Source: Prevotellaceae bacterium (GTDB taxonomy: Bacteria > Bacteroidota > Bacteroidia > Bacteroidales > Bacteroidaceae). From it: a DNA stretch of 15,997 nt. Both the position numbers and the translations under genes were made by a program. Shown one piece after another: positions 16 to 11,234 of the stretch. Each line of letters begins with the position of its first letter. The first letter of the stretch is position 1. The notes under the pieces are model-generated. The model made no database searches. It had not been told where the DNA came from and worked only from the letters and a program-made list of their open reading frames with translations. The stretch lies in the NCBI GenBank assembly GCA_022508685.1, contig JAFLUS010000002.1, positions 1 to 15,997 on the forward strand. Direction: 5' to 3'.

Positions 16-3000
16 TTACTTCACGAGCACCTTGTGAGTCTGACCATTCTGACGAATGATGTAGATGCCTGCAGGTGCGTTGTTGAGGCTGTTCAGACGA
101 CGGCCGTCGAGAGAGAAGAATGCAGGTGCAGCAGTTTCGTTGCTTACAGCGTTGATGCCTGTTGCAGGGTTGTAACCCGGCTGCTTGTTCTCAATCATCT
201 TCAGCGTGAAGTTGTCTGCAGAGAACCATGTGTTGGTAGATTCTACGCAGTCTGCGCCGTCAGTATCTTTGTGACCTTCAGTGTATTTGAAGTCGTTCGT
301 GATACCGAGTGTCAGCACGTTGCCTGTTACTTCGATTTGGTAAGAAGTGTAGAACCAACCGCGACCCAAACCACCATTTACGAGTGCATAGTCGTTGTCG
401 TCGGGGTTAGGACCGAGTTTAGCCTCTACCCAGAGTTCACCGTGAGTGTCAGTCTTGTATTCTACAGAATCCATGTCAGTAACGGTTTCGTCGATGAGGT
501 AAGCAGGTGTCGGCTTGATGTGTGCAGCAGCGAAGATGGCATTTTCCATTTCCGTACCGTCGATACCCAAGAGGTAGAGACCTTCTGCACCCGGAGTACC
601 GCTTGCGCGTGTGATAGCCTTCACTTCGTAAACACCATTCGGGATGTTAACGATAGTCTGGTAAGCAGTGTACTTCAACAATCCGGCAGTTCCGTTCCAA
701 GAGTCGAGGTAGCGGTTGTTGTCCATGTCACCAACTGCACCTTGTCCGTAAGCCGTGTAAGTGTTACCGTTTTCGCGTTCTACCGTCCAGCCAGTAGGAA
801 TAGCATTGTTGTCGGTAGTAGCACCGAAGTCACCGTTCACGATAGCGGCAGTGAGGTCGTCGTCACCGCTTGCGAGGAGGTCAGCCATTGTTACGACAGA
901 GATAGCCTTGTTGAGGTCGGCAATGTACTTGTCGAATGTTTCCTTCGTCGGGAATGCAGTGATGGCAGTGAGTTTAGCCACCTGTCCGTTAATCGTAGAT
1001 TGCAGTGCTTCTTTAGCAAGAGCGTCAGTTACTGTCACTTCTTCAGCATTGCGGAGAGCGGGCAGATATGCGCCGAGGTAGTATTCGCGGAGGATAGTCG
1101 TCAGCGAATCCATGTGCGTGTATGTAGCGTTGGCAGCATTGATGTAGCCATCCATGATTTCTACAGCCTTGTTAGCCACAGCCTTTTGGTTAGTAGTGTA
1201 CTCGTCGCCGTCAGAAGTCTTACCAGCCTTGAGCGTAGCGTAAGAACCGGTGATGACGCCGTTGTACTTGTCGATAGAAGCCTGTGCTTCAGTCAACGCA
1301 GCGTTGAGCACTGCGAGGGCAGCATTGATTTCTTCAGTTGTCGTTGCACCAGTTGCTTCAGTGATAGCAGCCTGCAGCGCAGCCTTGTCGAGTGCGAAGA
1401 CTACTTCATTCACCTTTGCATTGGCTTCAGCCAATTTTTCAGCATAGAGTGTCTGGAGAACGTCTTCTGCACCTTCGTTGCCCCAGTAGAGCAGACGGAA
1501 GTTCGTTACGAAGAACCAACCACCACGAGTATCGCTGAATCCGGCAGGAGTGATGAGTGTGCCGTCTTCTTCCTTCATCTGTGCACCAGAAGCACCGATA
1601 GTGAGTTTACCGTCGTTCACGTAAACCTTTTCAGTCGTGAGGTAAGTCCAGTCGATATCTTCAGCATTTTCATCGTACATGTTACCTTCGGTCAGAGCCG
1701 GAGAAACAGTTTCCTGTGCGCTACTGCGTGCGAAGAGGTGCTGGTCAGTTACACAGTTGGGCTGAGTCAGCATTTCTGCGCTGATGGTGTAGTAACCATT
1801 GGGCAGACCGGTAATATCTTGGTTGATAGTGATGGTCCAGTCGCCAGTACGCCATGCGTTCCAGCAGATACGACCTGCACGCCAGTTCAGACGTTGGTCA
1901 CCACCGCTTGTGCCGATGTACCAACCTTCGCTCGAGCCGTCAACAGGTGCGCTACCGCCTACGTATTCAGCCGACTTGTTGTCGTAAGAGATGTATTCGA
2001 TAGAACCGTCAGCAGCGTAAGAGATGGTGGGTTCGAAACCTGCCTTCGTGAAGTAAGGAGATTTTACGAAGAAGGTGTAGTCTGCACCATTCTCACCAAC
2101 TTCTTGCGAGGTGAGGTAGAGGTCGATAGCCGCTTGCAGTTTGTCAATCATTGCTTGTACTGCGTCTGACCATCCGTAACCGTCGCCACGGAAATCGTCT
2201 GCTTCATTAACGACTGCAGAAAGGTCGTCTGCACCCGGATACTTAAGACCCAAGAGGTCCCATGCACGGTCGATGAGCGCGTCGAGTTGCGGAATGAGCG
2301 CAGCAGCGAGTTCTGCATCTTCAGCAGCAGCCGTCAGTTTGTCGCGATATGCTTCCAGTTCTTCAACCGTCATGCCGTCGATGTCTTCTTCCAGAATTTC
2401 GGTAAAGCTTTCGCGTGTGCCGTCACCGTCAACAATCATGTATGCACCGAGGTCGTTGAGACGTTGATAGAGGTCATCCCAATAGTCCTGACGTTTAGCG
2501 TCAACGTCGATGCGGATGAGTTCTTCGGGAGTGATTTCGTCGAGACGATAGAGACGTGCCAACAGGAAGCCGTCGAAACAAGCCTGGATAGCGTTTTCCT
2601 TCAACCAACGAGCGTTGAATTGCAGGTAACGGAATTCTTCAGTTTCAAACGAACATGCCGTCTGTGCCCAGTCGCCACCATTGTATGCACCGTAGCCGAG
2701 GATGTCGTCATTCTTGTCACCGTTCATACCGATGAGAATCTTGTCTTCAGTATCACCGGGAGAGGTTGTCGGTTCGCGGTCTGTCAGCGAAACAACAGGA
2801 ATGTACTGGTTGAGGTCAGAGTTCTTTGCCAACCAGAACGAGAAGTAGTAGCGAGCACCTTGTTCCAGTTCCCAATAAGTAGCGATAGAACCTGCGCCAC
2901 CTACGCCAGTGTGAGAGTTTGCTTGGATGTAAGGGCCTCCGTCGTAACCACCTTCATTATGCCAAATGAACGTGTTGGTCGACAACGGATTGCGCTGACC

Positions 3001-3222
3001 ATTGAGCCATCCTTCAATTTCCCCGTTCGTCTTCGACGGGTCTTTTGTGAATGAAGAGTTCTTGACGATGTTTGAGCCGACGAGCCACTCCGAACCATCG
3101 CTCAAAGTGATTTTTTCGCCCACCTTTACATCACCAAAGACCAATTCATTTTGCGCGCTGACAGTGGTCGTTCCCATGAACATAGCCATTGCCGCGATAG
3201 CAAATGTAAATAGTTTCTTCAT
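16..3222 (-). CDS. Large secreted protein with three carbohydrate-binding-like domains and a C-terminal sorting-like module
   Basis: This 1068-residue protein has no catalytic family that I recognise. Residues 1-23 form a signal peptide (MKKLF, a hydrophobic stretch, then VSA before Gln24). Residues about 46-225 look like a galactose-binding-like beta-sandwich ('NIVKNSSF...GW', ending 'FDGFLLARLY'). Residues 230-375 are helical and charged. A second beta-sandwich covers about 380-580 ('LPNGYYTISAEM', 'TNFRLLYW'). Residues 585-780 are Ala-rich helices of FIVAR type ('LDKAALQAAI'). A third sandwich covers 785-1010 ('IVNGDFG', 'IPNGVYEVKA', 'SADNFTLKMI'). Residues 1022-1068 form a sorting-like end ('FFSLDGRRL', 'AGIYIIRQNG'). 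The family pattern suggests an exported or cell-surface glycan-binding protein, but that role is inferred. The start is fixed by the signal peptide and by an A-rich leader without Shine-Dalgarno. The gene has its own promoter upstream and lies in the same direction as the GH97-GH43 pair. It could instead be an uncharacterised enzyme. Confidence 0.85.
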   Translation of the reverse strand: MKKLFTFAIAAMAMFMGTTTVSAQNELVFGDVKVGEKITLSDGSEWLVGSNIVKNSSFTKDPSKTNGEIEGWLNGQRNPLSTNTFIWHNEGGYDGGPYIQANSHTGVGGAGSIATYWELEQGARYYFSFWLAKNSDLNQYIPVVSLTDREPTTSPGDTEDKILIGMNGDKNDDILGYGAYNGGDWAQTACSFETEEFRYLQFNARWLKENAIQACFDGFLLARLYRLDEITPEELIRIDVDAKRQDYWDDLYQRLNDLGAYMIVDGDGTRESFTEILEEDIDGMTVEELEAYRDKLTAAAEDAELAAALIPQLDALIDRAWDLLGLKYPGADDLSAVVNEADDFRGDGYGWSDAVQAMIDKLQAAIDLYLTSQEVGENGADYTFFVKSPYFTKAGFEPTISYAADGSIEYISYDNKSAEYVGGSAPVDGSSEGWYIGTSGGDQRLNWRAGRICWNAWRTGDWTITINQDITGLPNGYYTISAEMLTQPNCVTDQHLFARSSAQETVSPALTEGNMYDENAEDIDWTYLTTEKVYVNDGKLTIGASGAQMKEEDGTLITPAGFSDTRGGWFFVTNFRLLYWGNEGAEDVLQTLYAEKLAEANAKVNEVVFALDKAALQAAITEATGATTTEEINAALAVLNAALTEAQASIDKYNGVITGSYATLKAGKTSDGDEYTTNQKAVANKAVEIMDGYINAANATYTHMDSLTTILREYYLGAYLPALRNAEEVTVTDALAKEALQSTINGQVAKLTAITAFPTKETFDKYIADLNKAISVVTMADLLASGDDDLTAAIVNGDFGATTDNNAIPTGWTVERENGNTYTAYGQGAVGDMDNNRYLDSWNGTAGLLKYTAYQTIVNIPNGVYEVKAITRASGTPGAEGLYLLGIDGTEMENAIFAAAHIKPTPAYLIDETVTDMDSVEYKTDTHGELWVEAKLGPNPDDNDYALVNGGLGRGWFYTSYQIEVTGNVLTLGITNDFKYTEGHKDTDGADCVESTNTWFSADNFTLKMIENKQPGYNPATGINAVSNETAAPAFFSLDGRRLNSLNNAPAGIYIIRQNGQTHKVLVK

Positions 3223-6358: not shown

Positions 6359-8575
6359 TCATCGTTGCGCGGTGCTGCCACCACGCAGATGCATGATTGC
6401 ACCCGAACCAAGGTCTGCCGAGGTGGGCACGATTTCCAAATCGGAGATGCGTTTCTGCAAGTCCTCGTCAACGGAAAGACGCATGACTGAGCCCGAACCG
6501 AGGGCTGCCGAGTTAGGCACGATTTCCAGAGCGGAGATACGCTCCTGCAAATCCTCGTCGACGGAAGAGAGTGACAAACCTTCGAACGCCTTCATGACGA
6601 AACCGCCGTTGGGTGCCATCGTCACCTTGACGGCTGACACGTTGTTCAGCACACGGCGACGGTCGTACTTCGGGTCTTGGTTCTTCAGGTTGTCCGTATA
6701 GAGTTCGACAGCGGCGCCGTCGGTCAGTACGGCTGAAAGGTCGAGCGTCAGTTTCAGCGGAGCCGTTCCGGCATTGACGCCGGCGATGTACCACGTGCCG
6801 TGGTGGCGACGTGCCAGCACCACGTAGCGACCGGGATAGCCGTCGATGAAGCGGGTCTCTTCCCACGTCGTGGGTACGCGCTTCATGAAGTCTACGGCTG
6901 CTGCGGGAGCACCGCCTTCATCCTCCGGTTCGAGGTTTTCGGGCGTGAGTGCGAAGTTCTGAATGGGGTTCTGGAAGAGCACCGCCGTTGCCAGTTCAAA
7001 ACTGTCGGTGGTGCGACGAATTGTACCGCCCTTGTTGCCGCGTGAGAGCCGGCGGTTGAGCACGCTGCCACCAAACTCCATGCAACCTACGGCATTGCGG
7101 ATGTAGGGATGCAGACAGGCGTTGAAGGCTTCTTCGTCGCAGAAATCCTGTCCGAAGATGAGGTTCTCGCTGGCGAGCACAGCCTCGCTGCCCACGTAGT
7201 TGGGATACATGCGTTCCCATCCGCGCGGCAACGTGCAGCCGTGGAAAATCACCATCAGTGCGTGGTCGTCGGCATCGCTCAGGATGGCTTCGTACAGGCG
7301 CATCGTCTCTTGCTTGTCGCCGCCGAAGAAGTCTACCTTGATGCCCTTCACGTCGTTCTTCTGCATCCAGCGCATCCATTCCTTGCGCTGAATGGGGTTG
7401 TCCATGGCATTGATGGGCGACTGCACGATGTCGTTCCAGTAGCCGCTCGAACTGAACCACAGGAAGACGTCGACGCCTTGGCTGTGGGCATATTCAATGA
7501 GGCGTTCCATGCGCTCTTTGCCGATGGCGATGTCCCACCCTGCATCGATGAGGATGTATTCGTAGCCCAATTGCTTGGCGAGATTGATGAAATGCACTTG
7601 GTCGTCGTAGTTCATCGAGTTGTCTTGCCATACAATCCAACTCCATGTGCCACGTCCGAACTTGTAGTCATGCTGCGACGCATAGCGTGGCGCAACATTG
7701 TCGAAGGGTGCAGTGGTCTCGACGATGGGCGCAAGCGTCGTGCCGACCGTGATGGTGCGCCACGGCGTCGTGCCGGGCAGCGCGAATGCCGGTTCGGGCG
7801 TGCCGTTGCCGTTGTTCTCTTCCGCCATGGGGAAAGCAATGGTGTAGCAATCCACCGAACCCGTCGCAGCAGCCGGCGTCCAGTCGCTCAGGTGGCTGGC
7901 ACAATAGCGCGAATCCACGCCGGTTTCGCTCACGAGCACCCATGCCGTCGGCGTGTGGAACAGGCAGGGGAACGTGTAGCCGTGACCATATTGCGAACGT
8001 GCCGTGAGTGGCGCATCGGCCTTGTACTTTTCTTCATAACTGGGTTTCGTGCGCTTCCACCCTATCATGGCGTCGCTCTGCGGGCAGAGGAACGTGGTGG
8101 TCTGTTCGGGAAAGGCAAAACCGGTCTTCTCCTCCATGATGCGGACGGCACCCGTCTCGCCCCGCCGTCCTTGGCGCGGCATTTCGTAGCGGAAGGCAAT
8201 GTCGTTGTTGGAAACGCGGAAGCGGACATCCAGCGGCTGGCGGCGGGCATTGCGCAACTGCAACGTCAGTTCGTTGGCCACGTAGTGCACGTGCGCCACT
8301 TTCGAGCGGTTCAGTTCATAGTGTTCGTCCACCGCGCCCGACTGCTGCTCCTGCAGCGTCAGTCCTTGGGAGAAATCGCCCACGTCGGCCACCAGTCCGA
8401 GCGGCGAAGCAGGCATGACCGTCTCGCCGTCGTAGGTTACCTTATAAAATGCACGTCCGTCGGCAACGTCTACCGCCACTGCCAGACGTCCGTCGGGACT
8501 CTTCACTTCTGCCTTCTGGGCCACAGCCACGAGCGTGCAAGCCAGCAGCAAAGCCATACATAAATTACGTTTCAT
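6359..8575 (-). CDS. GH97 glycoside hydrolase, predicted retaining type, with duplicated C-terminal tail
   Basis: A 738-residue exported glycosidase of family GH97. Residues 1-20 are a signal peptide (cleavage likely near AVAQ). The N-terminal beta-sandwich (about 22-290) opens with the family-typical 'VKSPDGRLAVAVDVADG'. The TIM barrel (about 300-565) includes 'ILIDAGWD' and 'GIKVDFFGGD', and a C-terminal beta domain covers 570-665. Asp415 after 'GIKV' sits where retaining GH97 enzymes (alpha-galactosidase/beta-L-arabinopyranosidase type, e.g. BT1871) carry the nucleophile; as I recall, inverting SusB-type alpha-glucosidases have glycine there. Glu470 (or Glu464) is the acid/base candidate; the 55-residue gap from Asp415 to Glu470 matches what I remember for BT1871. 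A galactoside or arabinopyranoside substrate is therefore more likely than starch, by inference. The tail (671-738) is two copies of a 30-residue unit and is not part of the normal fold. An alternative lipoprotein signal (LLAC, Cys13) seems less likely because a hydrophobic stretch follows it. Confidence 0.93.
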   Translation of the reverse strand: MKRNLCMALLLACTLVAVAQKAEVKSPDGRLAVAVDVADGRAFYKVTYDGETVMPASPLGLVADVGDFSQGLTLQEQQSGAVDEHYELNRSKVAHVHYVANELTLQLRNARRQPLDVRFRVSNNDIAFRYEMPRQGRRGETGAVRIMEEKTGFAFPEQTTTFLCPQSDAMIGWKRTKPSYEEKYKADAPLTARSQYGHGYTFPCLFHTPTAWVLVSETGVDSRYCASHLSDWTPAAATGSVDCYTIAFPMAEENNGNGTPEPAFALPGTTPWRTITVGTTLAPIVETTAPFDNVAPRYASQHDYKFGRGTWSWIVWQDNSMNYDDQVHFINLAKQLGYEYILIDAGWDIAIGKERMERLIEYAHSQGVDVFLWFSSSGYWNDIVQSPINAMDNPIQRKEWMRWMQKNDVKGIKVDFFGGDKQETMRLYEAILSDADDHALMVIFHGCTLPRGWERMYPNYVGSEAVLASENLIFGQDFCDEEAFNACLHPYIRNAVGCMEFGGSVLNRRLSRGNKGGTIRRTTDSFELATAVLFQNPIQNFALTPENLEPEDEGGAPAAAVDFMKRVPTTWEETRFIDGYPGRYVVLARRHHGTWYIAGVNAGTAPLKLTLDLSAVLTDGAAVELYTDNLKNQDPKYDRRRVLNNVSAVKVTMAPNGGFVMKAFEGLSLSSVDEDLQERISALEIVPNSAALGSGSVMRLSVDEDLQKRISDLEIVPTSADLGSGAIMHLRGGSTAQR
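6387..6566 (-). repeat. 90-bp in-frame tandem duplication encoding the GH97 C-terminal tail
   Basis: Two adjacent 90-base copies, 6387-6476 and 6477-6566, match at 75 of 90 positions by eye. They encode residues 671-700 and 701-730 of the GH97 protein, which agree at 23 of 30 residues. Each unit has the form SVDEDLQxRISxLEIVPxSA followed by xLGSGxxMxL. The first part resembles a short amphipathic helix and the second a Gly/Ser turn. A short end 'RGGSTAQR' follows the second copy. The copies are diverged but in frame, so the tail appears to be maintained rather than newly created. Its function is unknown. Confidence 0.9.
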
Positions 8576-8636
8576 CGTCGGTGTTTATTTAGTTCGTTTG
8601 AAACGGAACAGCCTTCCGCGTTCCGCCTATTCGTTG

Positions 8637-8668
8637 CAAAGATATAAGAAATAAGTATGCAGACCAAA
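8637..8668 (-). promoter_or_regulatory. Bacteroidetes-type promoter of the GH97-GH43 operon
   Basis: On the minus strand, TTTG (8668-8665) is followed by 20 bases and TATCTTTG (8644-8637), matching TTTG-N19-21-TAnnTTTG. The leader to the ATG at 8575 would be about 55 bases and has no Shine-Dalgarno sequence. The -33 element lies only about 25 bases from the nearest unit of the palindromic array at 8693-8879, a suitable distance for a regulator bound there to contact RNA polymerase. Confidence 0.75.
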
Positions 8669-8692
8669 TTTTTTCCGAAAAACATTGCTGCC

Positions 8693-8904
8693 GACGTCGC
8701 GAAGGAAAGTCGGGAACGTCGCGAAGGAAAAATAAAAACGTCGAAGAGAAAAGTCAAAACCACACTGCGGATTGTACAAACCACACTGCGGATTATACAA
8801 TCCACACTGCGGTTTTGACTTTCCATCCCAACAAAATCAACTTTCTGCAGACACATTCCCGACTTTGTTTCGCCACGTTTTCAACTTTATTCTGCAACGG
8901 CATT
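8693..8904. repeat. Helically phased palindromic repeat array between divergent promoters
   Basis: Three copies of CCACACTGCGG start at 8760, 8781 and 8802 (21-base period). Each is itself a near-palindrome. On the left, ACGTCG-containing units start at 8693, 8715 and 8737. On the right, GACTTT or AACTTT units start at 8817, 8839, 8861 and 8883. Both flanks have an exact 22-base period. Read on the minus strand, the left units have the same form as the right ones: 8714-8693 matches 8858-8879 at 18 of 22 positions (core GACTTTnnTTCGCnACGT). AAAGTCAAAACC (8750-8761) and GGTTTTGACTTT (8811-8822) are perfect inverse complements. All of these pairs share one centre, base 8786. Every unit faces the same side of the helix, as expected for an operator array, but function is not shown. 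The surrounding intergenic sequence (8576-9074) holds no convincing gene. Confidence 0.85.
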
Positions 8905-8958
8905 GCCCGCAAAATCCGACAATTTTTCCAAAATACAGCCTTTTTTCTTACTTTTCTA

Positions 8959-8988
8959 TTGCTTGCATAAAAGTTTTTCTTATATTTG
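8959..8988 (+). promoter_or_regulatory. Bacteroidetes-type promoter of fusA2
   Basis: TTG (8959-8961) is followed by a 19-base spacer and TATATTTG (8981-8988), matching the phylum consensus with a shortened -33 element. The predicted start lies a few bases downstream, giving a leader of about 80 bases before the ATG at 9075. That ATG is preceded by A/C-rich sequence (ATAACACTAACACTT) with no Shine-Dalgarno. The first part of the leader could fold weakly: GTCGG 9001-9005 is complementary to CCGAC 9025-9029. The weak -33 element would suit an activator-dependent promoter, which is inference. Confidence 0.7.
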
Positions 8989-9074: not shown

Positions 9075-11234
9075 ATGAAAGTTTACCAATCTAACGAAAT
9101 CAAGAACATTGCCCTGCTTGGCAATGACGGCGCGGGCAAGACTACGTTGACCGAAGCCTTGCTCTACGAAGCCGGAATCATCCAACGTCGCGGACGCATC
9201 ACACAGAAAAACACCGTGAGCGACTACTTCCCCGTGGAACAGGAATACGGCTACTCCGTCTTCTCCACCGTGTTCCACACAGAATGGAACGGCAAGAAAC
9301 TGAACATCATCGACTGTCCGGGAACCGACGACTTTGCCGGCGCAGCCATCACGGCACTCAACGTGACCGACACGGCACTGCTCCTCATCAACGGCCAGTA
9401 CGGCCCCGAAGTGCAGACGCAGAACCACTTCCGCTACACCGAAGAATTGGAAAAGCCCGTCATCTTCCTCGTCAACCAACTCGACTCCGACAAGTGCGAC
9501 TTCAACATGACGATAGAACGGCTGCGCGAACTCTACGGCCCCAAAGTAGTGCCCGTGCAATACCCGCTGAACGAAGGCCCCGACTTCAACGCACTCATCG
9601 ACGTGCTGCTCATGAAGAAATACAGTTGGAAGCCCGAAGGCGGCGCACCCATCATCGAAGACATCCCTGCTGAAGAACACGACCGCGCCATGGAACTCCA
9701 CCGCGCACTCGTCGAAGCCGCAGCAGAGAACGACGAAACCCTGATGGAGAAATTCTTCGAAGCAGAAAGCCTGACGGAAGACGAAATGCGCGAAGGCATC
9801 CGCAAAGGTCTGGTGACACGCAGCATCTACCCCGTATTCTGCGTATGCGCATACAAGGACATGGGCGTCCGCCGTCTGATGGAATTCCTCGGCAACGTCG
9901 TACCTTTCGTATCCGACATGCCGAAGCCCGTCAACGCAGCAGGCGAAGAAGTGGCACTCGACAGCAACGGCCCCGCAGCCCTCTACTTCTTCAAGACAGC
10001 CAACGAACCCCACATCGGCGACGTGCAGTACTTCAAGGTGATGAGCGGCAAGGTGCACGAAGGCGACGACCTCACCAACAACGACCGCGGTTCGAAGGAA
10101 CGCCTCTCGCAGTTGTTCGTCTGCGCCGGAGCCAACCGCACGAAAGTTGAAGAACTCGTTGCCGGCGACATCGGCTGCACCGTCAAACTGAAAGACGTGC
10201 GCACAGGCAACACGCTGACGGCAAAGGAAGTGGACTGGCGCTTCGACTTCATCGAATATCCCGACCCGAAGTACATCCGCTCCGTGAAACCGGAAAACGA
10301 ATCGGAATCGGAAAAGATGATGGCTGCCATCCAAAAGATGAGTCAGGAAGACCCCACATGGATTTTGGAACAAAGCAAGGAACTGAAGCAAACCCTCATC
10401 AAGGGACAAGGCGAATTCCACCTGCGCACACTGAAATGGCGCTTGGAAAACAATGCCAAAATCAAGGTGAAGTTTGAAGAACCGAAAATTCCTTACCGCG
10501 AAACCATCACCAAGAGCGCACGCGCTGACTATCGCCACAAGAAGCAATCGGGCGGCGCAGGACAATTTGGCGAAGTGCACCTCATCGTCGAACCTTACGA
10601 CGAGAACACACCCATGCCGGCCGTATACAAGTTCAACGGACAAGAATACAAAATCACCGCCAAAGGCGAAGAAATCGTCGACCTCGAATGGGGTGGCAAG
10701 TTGGTGTTCGTCAACTCCATCGTCGGCGGCAGCATCGATGCCCGCTTCCTTCCCGCCATTCTCAAGGGCGTAATGAGCCGCATGGAGCAAGGACCGCTCA
10801 CAGGCAGTTATGCCCGCGACGTGCGCGTCATCGTCTACGACGGAAAGATGCACCCGGTAGACTCCAACGAACTTTCGTTCATGCTCGCCGGCCGCCACGC
10901 CTTCAGCGAAGCCTTCAAGGCAGCAGGCCCGAAACTGCTGGAACCCATCTACGACGTTGAAGTCCTCGTGCCCAGCGACCGCATGGGTGACGTGATGAGC
11001 GACCTGCAAGGACGTCGCGGCATGATTGTCGGTTCGGAGAGCAGCAAGGGCTATGACAAACTCATCGCCAAAGTGCCGCTCAAGGAACTCTCCAACTACT
11101 CCACCTCGCTCTCGTCCATCACAGGCGGACGCGCATCGTTCACGATGAAGTTCTCCAACTACGAACTCGTTCCGACCGACGTTCAGCAGAAACTCGTCAA
11201 GGAATTCGAAGAACAAAACAAGGACGAAGACTAA
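9075..11234 (+). CDS. fusA2: Elongation factor G paralogue EF-G2 with degenerate GTPase motifs
   Basis: A 719-residue cytoplasmic translation factor with the full EF-G layout. It comprises a G domain (1-285), domain II (about 295-385), domain III (395-470), domain IV (472-600, with 'HKKQSGGAGQFGEV' near its start) and domain V (about 620-695). The P-loop is intact (G16 to T23, GNDGAGKT). Switch I is not the usual RGITI but 'EYGYSVFSTVF'. The G3 motif reads DCPGT (80-84), with Thr84 replacing the catalytic histidine of DTPGH. G4 reads NQLD (134-137) rather than NKxD. This agrees with published work on Bacteroides EF-G2, which supports translocation without GTP hydrolysis and is induced by the regulator Cur on carbon limitation. 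It is not the housekeeping fusA: no ribosomal protein or tuf genes are nearby, and it is divergent from a glycosidase operon. The long antisense reading frame across it is a codon-bias shadow. Confidence 0.93.
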   Translation: MKVYQSNEIKNIALLGNDGAGKTTLTEALLYEAGIIQRRGRITQKNTVSDYFPVEQEYGYSVFSTVFHTEWNGKKLNIIDCPGTDDFAGAAITALNVTDTALLLINGQYGPEVQTQNHFRYTEELEKPVIFLVNQLDSDKCDFNMTIERLRELYGPKVVPVQYPLNEGPDFNALIDVLLMKKYSWKPEGGAPIIEDIPAEEHDRAMELHRALVEAAAENDETLMEKFFEAESLTEDEMREGIRKGLVTRSIYPVFCVCAYKDMGVRRLMEFLGNVVPFVSDMPKPVNAAGEEVALDSNGPAALYFFKTANEPHIGDVQYFKVMSGKVHEGDDLTNNDRGSKERLSQLFVCAGANRTKVEELVAGDIGCTVKLKDVRTGNTLTAKEVDWRFDFIEYPDPKYIRSVKPENESESEKMMAAIQKMSQEDPTWILEQSKELKQTLIKGQGEFHLRTLKWRLENNAKIKVKFEEPKIPYRETITKSARADYRHKKQSGGAGQFGEVHLIVEPYDENTPMPAVYKFNGQEYKITAKGEEIVDLEWGGKLVFVNSIVGGSIDARFLPAILKGVMSRMEQGPLTGSYARDVRVIVYDGKMHPVDSNELSFMLAGRHAFSEAFKAAGPKLLEPIYDVEVLVPSDRMGDVMSDLQGRRGMIVGSESSKGYDKLIAKVPLKELSNYSTSLSSITGGRASFTMKFSNYELVPTDVQQKLVKEFEEQNKDED

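Follow-up and report, generated by a model that had tools for sequence, protein, structure and literature searches.

A 21-bp-phased palindrome array between a GH97 glycosidase gene and fusA2 is a three-unit variant of a dispersed Bacteroidales repeat

The stretch of DNA analysed here, called the window, comprises 15,997 nucleotides of a Prevotellaceae genome. A palindromic array lies in the 499 bp that separate a GH97 glycosidase gene from the gene of a Bacteroidetes elongation factor G2 (fusA2), both of which are neighbours and stand outside the element (Table 1). An earlier note on this DNA had placed the array between two divergent promoters. The two genes are indeed divergent, and the promoters themselves, judged by eye, are putative. 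Elsewhere in the window, the 3′-terminal part of the GH97 gene holds a 90-bp tandem duplication (6387-6566; two copies, 83% match) that gives a repeated peptide near the C-terminus. A protein of 1068 aa, encoded at 16-3222, matches nothing in Pfam at E 0.001, and its C-terminal tail, judged by eye, resembles a type IX sorting tail.

The core of the array is formed by three copies of CCACACTGCGG, which start at 8760, 8781 and 8802 with a period of 21 bp, the middle copy being centred on 8786. This centre is shared by a perfect 12-base inverted pair (8750-8761 / 8811-8822) and by two outer stretches, 8693-8714 and 8858-8879, which match at 18 of 22 positions. From either side, outer 22-bp units run inward. 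On the left they begin at 8694, 8716 and 8738 and carry an AAAGT box in steps of 22 bp, and on the right the mirrored ACTTT box recurs with the same step. A further inverted pair found by repeat search, 8694-8719 / 8853-8878, links the two outer modules, and modules resembling the left one stand, by eye, beside sister arrays. The three core copies, the pairs with a common centre and the 22-base period of both flanks had all been described in the earlier note and were recovered at the same places. Its view that the symmetry exceeds chance also holds, as 63 of the 93 mirrored pairs within ±93 bases match when the axis is set exactly at 8786, compared with a mean of 37.1 and a maximum of 44 for the best axis in 300 dinucleotide shuffles of 8600-8980.

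Table 1. Coordinates of the palindromic array and of its neighbouring genes in the window.
Feature	Position	Strand	Evidence
GH97 glycosidase, neighbour, outside element	6359..8575	-	Pfam PF10566, PF14508, PF14509
Left outer module of three 22-bp units; AAAGT-type boxes, one per unit, at 8706, 8728 (degenerate) and 8750	8694..8759	+	repeat search and box spacing
AAAGTC box at the left edge of the core, arm of the perfect 12-bp inverted pair	8750..8761	+	repeat search and symmetry computation
Core palindromic unit 1, centre 8765	8755..8775	.	repeat search and symmetry computation
Core palindromic unit 2, centred on the array axis (8786)	8776..8796	.	repeat search and symmetry computation
Core palindromic unit 3, centre 8807; a fourth unit is present in most sister arrays found	8797..8817	.	
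GACTTT box at the right edge of the core, other arm of the 12-bp inverted pair	8811..8822	-	repeat search and symmetry computation
Right outer module, inverted units, ACTTT boxes at 8840, 8862 and 8884 (core-edge box 8818), 22 bp apart	8823..8888	-	
Bacteroidetes elongation factor G2 (fusA2), neighbour, outside element	9075..11234	+	NCBIfam NF058620 above cut-off

DNA and pattern searches revealed sister arrays on other contigs of the same genome, two of them cut by contig ends. Including these two, the genome carries about 13 arrays. A covariance model, R1, built gap-free over 108 columns from six of its four-unit copies, gave 26 matches there, mostly on both strands. In the host family, R1 matched 44 of 201 genomes (E 0.01), and its matches in 16 array-rich genomes included 105 in G092 and 70 in G133. 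Because most arrays are matched on both strands, these figures stand for about half as many arrays, that is, up to about 50 copies per genome. A second covariance model, R2 (60 matches in 30 loci), matched 95 of 399 host-family genomes, 50 of 207 good genomes and 16 of 30 genera at E 0.001, leaving 304 genomes with no R2 match. In 1.46 Mb from 80 relatives and the window, only the window and one relative's locus, L220, were matched by R2. The large searches used stricter filters with few candidates scored per genome, and their E-values are rough; since R2 also missed an array that was detected sequence-blind (locus L223), the genome counts are lower bounds. In addition, a contig end is only a few hundred bases away from several arrays (contigs C59, C83 and C104 of G000; C142, C64, C77, C14, C51 and C57 of G092), so that short-read assemblies may break at arrays and the counts may be low.

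Among 393 genomes of the order, R1 matched seven, including the window's own genome and G037 of the host family. Outside this family, the matches in G223 (four units) and G470 (three clear units) were accepted, and those in G503, G239 and G517 were dropped as long tandem or coding-looking repeats. Plasmid and phage collections held no match to a copy from G092, and plasmids none to the window array. The dispersed intergenic repeat family, which the earlier note had listed as an alternative, is supported by the arrays within the window's own genome and by those across its family.

The window array is a three-unit variant of a dispersed Bacteroidales repeat, the units of which, usually four, lie two helix turns apart; four palindromes at 21-bp phase make a core of about 84 bp. 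When the three spacings were left free between 17 and 25 bp, 21, 21, 21 was a best fit in 98 of the 100 loci found with R1, a model built on 21-bp arrays, yet allowing insertions. A sequence-blind detector, applied to loci that had been fetched by the model, found 68 arrays at period 21 and only runs of N at 20 or 22. In 1.44 Mb from the 80 relatives, the detector gave two arrays at period 21 with a score of at least 24, and two unlike matches at the same cut-off over periods 16-29. Mirrored matches average 6.6 of 8 within the units of arrays chosen by the four-unit detector, against 1.7 and 1.6 in the adjoining outside registers; as 8 of the 136 registers outside the core score 5 or 6 of 8, a fifth unit may be present in a few arrays. 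Inverted AAA-S-T boxes usually bound the core, as judged by eye, and the flanking units of about 22 bp vary in number between copies. A different 22-bp palindromic tandem satellite was observed on a rumen Prevotella contig (L284, about 450-560).

Copies of one genome are, by eye, more alike than copies of different genera, and the units are lineage-specific, for example AATCAGCA-S-TGCTGATT in G141, AAACCAA-NNN-TTGGTTT in G133, types with GGCA or AGCA in G092, CCACA in the window's genome and TTTCATA types in G187. Palindromy is nonetheless kept across species, with 85.8% of cells paired against 60.6% after shuffling, and 343 two-sided changes against 133. This test covered 30 loci, two of which are the same place, on both strands with an alignment fitted to the structure; slid controls gave 28-41%.

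Within genomes, the units combine fixed and free positions. In all 96 of 96 units of G092, positions ±2, ±5, ±7 and ±8 are invariant on both sides, whereas ±4 and ±6 do not covary and pair about as often as expected, or less (±4 in 42 of 96 units, 42.9 expected; ±6 in 30 of 96, 36.5 expected). The same style is found at other positions in G133 and G141. Some mirrored positions covary (±3 and ±4 in G074; ±5, ±7 and ±8 in G000; ±3 in G092), which could equally come from a hairpin or from mixed subfamilies. At doubly variable positions, pairing falls below independence in every topology tried in G092, G133 and G141, partly because both array orientations were pooled; it is above independence in all topologies in G000, and in G074 within units and for 1:3 and 2:4, but otherwise below. 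On balance, this base use would fit dimeric protein sites with an indifferent dyad base better than RNA hairpins.

The congeneric genomes G092 and G074 allow half-sites to be compared. Among arrays selected with R1, all eight consensus half-sites differ (CGGCA in 6 of 8 in G092, CCACA in 8 of 8 in G074), and flanks and linkers are nearly alike, but this sample is biased because R1 was built from CCACA-type arrays. Loci chosen by the right end of the element instead do not bear out a clean half-site switch between the two genomes, as the types overlap: CGGCA (51%), CAGCA (26%) and CTGCA (11%) in G092, CCACA (36%), CAGCA (33%) and CAACA (17%) in G074. Thirty such loci were examined, 21 of which have four-unit arrays; some of the nine others have, by eye, a smaller number of units or are located where a contig ends. 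The weaker claim is that the half-sites of the two genomes are shifted yet overlapping.

One orthologous copy is shared by G141 and G180, between neighbour proteins that are 92-95% identical. Its cores differ at 9 of 84 bases with no gap: the central base is flipped three times, and substitutions occur three times at position -10, twice at +3 and once at -8. The element is 88-91% identical without gaps, compared with 61% for the left intergenic sequence and 91%, with gaps, for the right promoter side; gene conversion between copies could also have caused the likeness. As judged by eye, copies in G092 and G074 reach very roughly 70-120 bp past the core on each side, and their ends are conserved and asymmetric, each unlike the other. 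In about 5 of 32 rows from these two genomes (L147, L149, L156, L164 and L194), the core is, by eye, inverted relative to the ends, hinting at recombination between inverted outer units. Homology between loci can be traced no farther than about 330 bp from the core centre; the exceptions are in G141, where L169 reaches 411 and a longer stretch is common to L174 and L176. As far as sequence comparison goes, the short homologous extent and the shared ends would fit a short mobile element.

The GH97-fusA2 gene pair was observed in four species, two of which carry an array there. In the nearest relative (G005, locus L219; fusA2 93% identical), the two genes are about 290 bp apart, and neither the detector nor the model search found an array in this interval. 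The same two approaches found none beside the pair in L233. In L220, which matches G006 by coordinates, the interval is about 840 bp long, and a four-unit array with a sequence unlike that of the window array lies at 9540-9647, which suggests independent insertion or concerted change. Therefore, the array is not a fixed part of the GH97-fusA2 interval. Loss from the nearest relative, instead of insertion in the window's genome, could also explain the array-free site. By model search, L220 is the only one of the 80 fusA2 loci of relatives with an array upstream of the gene, 79 of these loci having more than 500 bp of upstream sequence. The earlier note had proposed an operator co-regulating fusA2 and the glycosidase, to be given up if the array recurred at many unrelated intergenic sites with no link to promoters and weakened if it was not conserved upstream of fusA2 in close relatives. 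Similar arrays lie at many unrelated sites with no preference for divergent genes, and the nearest relative has kept the gene pair without the array, so by the note's own refuting observations this specific reading is not supported.

The array is probably a dispersed, and likely mobile, intergenic element that offers a phased platform to a putative dimeric DNA-binding protein. Each palindrome would bind one dimer of a sequence-specific protein, with several dimers side by side along the same face of the helix and probably cooperating. Half-site preference would differ by lineage, allowing the sequence to drift while the geometry stays. The putative protein would most likely mobilise or control the element itself in a selfish, MITE-like role, and any effects on fusA2 or the glycosidase would be incidental. 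From the cooperative multi-dimer operator of the earlier note, the two-turn-phased array of dimers would stay a good description, and regulation of these two genes finds no support. A bolder version, which is put forward tentatively, is that of an undescribed nucleoprotein element, in which four dimers of one rapidly evolving protein sit on a 21-bp-phased array copied round the chromosome, the specificity of the protein and dozens of arrays per genome changing together between species.

It is also conceivable, but rather unlikely, that the arrays are structured nucleic acids, either RNA hairpins in transcripts or DNA cruciforms or single-stranded hairpins, recognised by shape and free in sequence as long as they stay self-complementary. 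The array folds very well in prediction, both as RNA and as DNA, and its structure may be recognised: the RNA fold reaches -58.8 kcal/mol (z -11.6) on the minus strand of the window and -32.3 (z -6.1) on the plus strand, and -85.4 (z -18.7) in the G092 copy L147. The two-sided changes that keep palindromy across species and the covarying mirrored positions within genomes point the same way. However, hairpins need no exact 21-bp spacing, and variable mirrored positions within genomes often pair at chance level. Furthermore, neither strand test shows a preference for the sense strand. Of 33 arrays in tandem contexts, 20 fold better on the antisense and 10 on the sense strand (p 0.10), and a comparison of G-U pairing comes out for antisense in 17 and for sense in 10, the other 6 being tied. 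The transcribed hairpin RNA considered in the earlier note finds no support in these tests, which show no link to gene direction. No Rfam family was matched at gathering score by 16 loci or by the window; the window has seven weaker matches, which appear to reflect a general likeness to hairpins and six of which are to microRNA precursors (best E 6.6e-05).

That a global regulator acts on the arrays to control adjoining genes, including fusA2 and GH97, is improbable. The window array does lie between divergent genes, arrays of different sequence occur at the GH97-fusA2 pair in two of four species, an orthologous copy has been kept by two species, and divergent contexts outnumber convergent ones (17 to 8). 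Nevertheless, the contexts of 71 arrays, based on our own ORF calls, are close to random, with 33 tandem and 13 other contexts beside these (11 without a neighbour on one side and two inside an open frame). Common neighbours are also few, as only ten similar pairs were found among 171 near genes at 84 loci, two of which come from the single G141/G180 site. In addition, the array is missing from the pair in L219 and L233, and 304 of the 399 host-family genomes have no match. Arrays of two genera adjoin a gene that resembles, by eye, a CCA tRNA nucleotidyltransferase (L075, 1-60; L359, about 7001-7108; proteins 66% identical), a single shared site that may be due to chance. The orientation of arrays relative to GC skew is weakly and inconsistently biased (same to opposite: 16 to 4 with 1 undefined in G092, 4 to 7 in G074, 3 to 2 with 1 undefined in G141 and 9 to 3 in G133, by hand count). 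Least credible of all is a REP/BIME-type element moved by a RAYT, a Y1 tyrosine transposase. As with REPs, the palindromes are intergenic and present in many copies (PMC3733652, available text), and Y1_Tnp is in mild excess, matching 8 of 14 array-carrying genomes and 3 of 12 genomes without an R1 match. However, no Y1_Tnp match was found in the array-carrying genomes G092 (the richest), G052, G132, G187, G154 and G005, so that Y1_Tnp is not needed, and both the size and the phased four-unit core are unlike REPs of 20-40 bp.

A geometry held fixed while the sequence turns over suggests that a trans-acting partner exists in many Bacteroidales, for which the arrays offer a direct bait. The bolder nucleoprotein version, if true, would provide a natural series of matched protein-DNA specificities. 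A further lesson is that what looks like a striking palindromic operator next to a gene may turn out to be a dispersed element.

Searches of the literature, mostly at record level and with subscription journals largely outside their scope, for palindromic, intergenic, dispersed or MITE repeats of Prevotella, Bacteroidetes or Bacteroidales and for phased palindromes, returned no description of such arrays. To our knowledge, it is unusual for bacterial intergenic repeats to combine a fixed geometry with a sequence that turns over from one species to another. ERIC and BOX elements are imperfect palindromes or modular repeats of roughly 100-200 bp between genes, and we know of none that forms an array of palindromes strictly phased at two turns and specific in sequence to a lineage. 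In multi-site cooperative operators and iterons, sites are likewise repeated at a spacing of two helical turns, but these sit at one or a few regulated or replication loci, whereas the arrays occupy up to about 50 scattered sites. REPs measure 20-40 bp and mostly carry GTAG or CGTC tags, and the GTAG types are thought to be moved by RAYTs, according to the available part of the source (PMC3733652). The arrays are like REPs, BIMEs and REPINs in being intergenic, palindromic and present in many copies as species-specific families, but differ by their core of four phased palindromes and by the lack of an obligatory RAYT. As to a GTAG-type tag, array units and flanks, inspected by eye only, show the 21-bp units and the AAA-S-T boxes. 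A further likeness, within the same order, is to BrickBuilt, a MITE of Porphyromonas gingivalis with 19 intergenic copies, short tandem units and predicted stem loops, in which 1 to 22.8 tandem 23-nt direct repeats are accompanied by a leader, a tail and IS5-like terminal repeats; like BrickBuilt, the arrays are intergenic, multi-copy and made of short tandem units, but the available part of the source describes no fixed four-palindrome core (PMC4596501). In contrast to this variable 23-nt layout, the arrays hold to 21 bp in 98 of 100 loci and normally have four units; as dispersed, short, non-coding copies at non-orthologous sites, they resemble MITEs.
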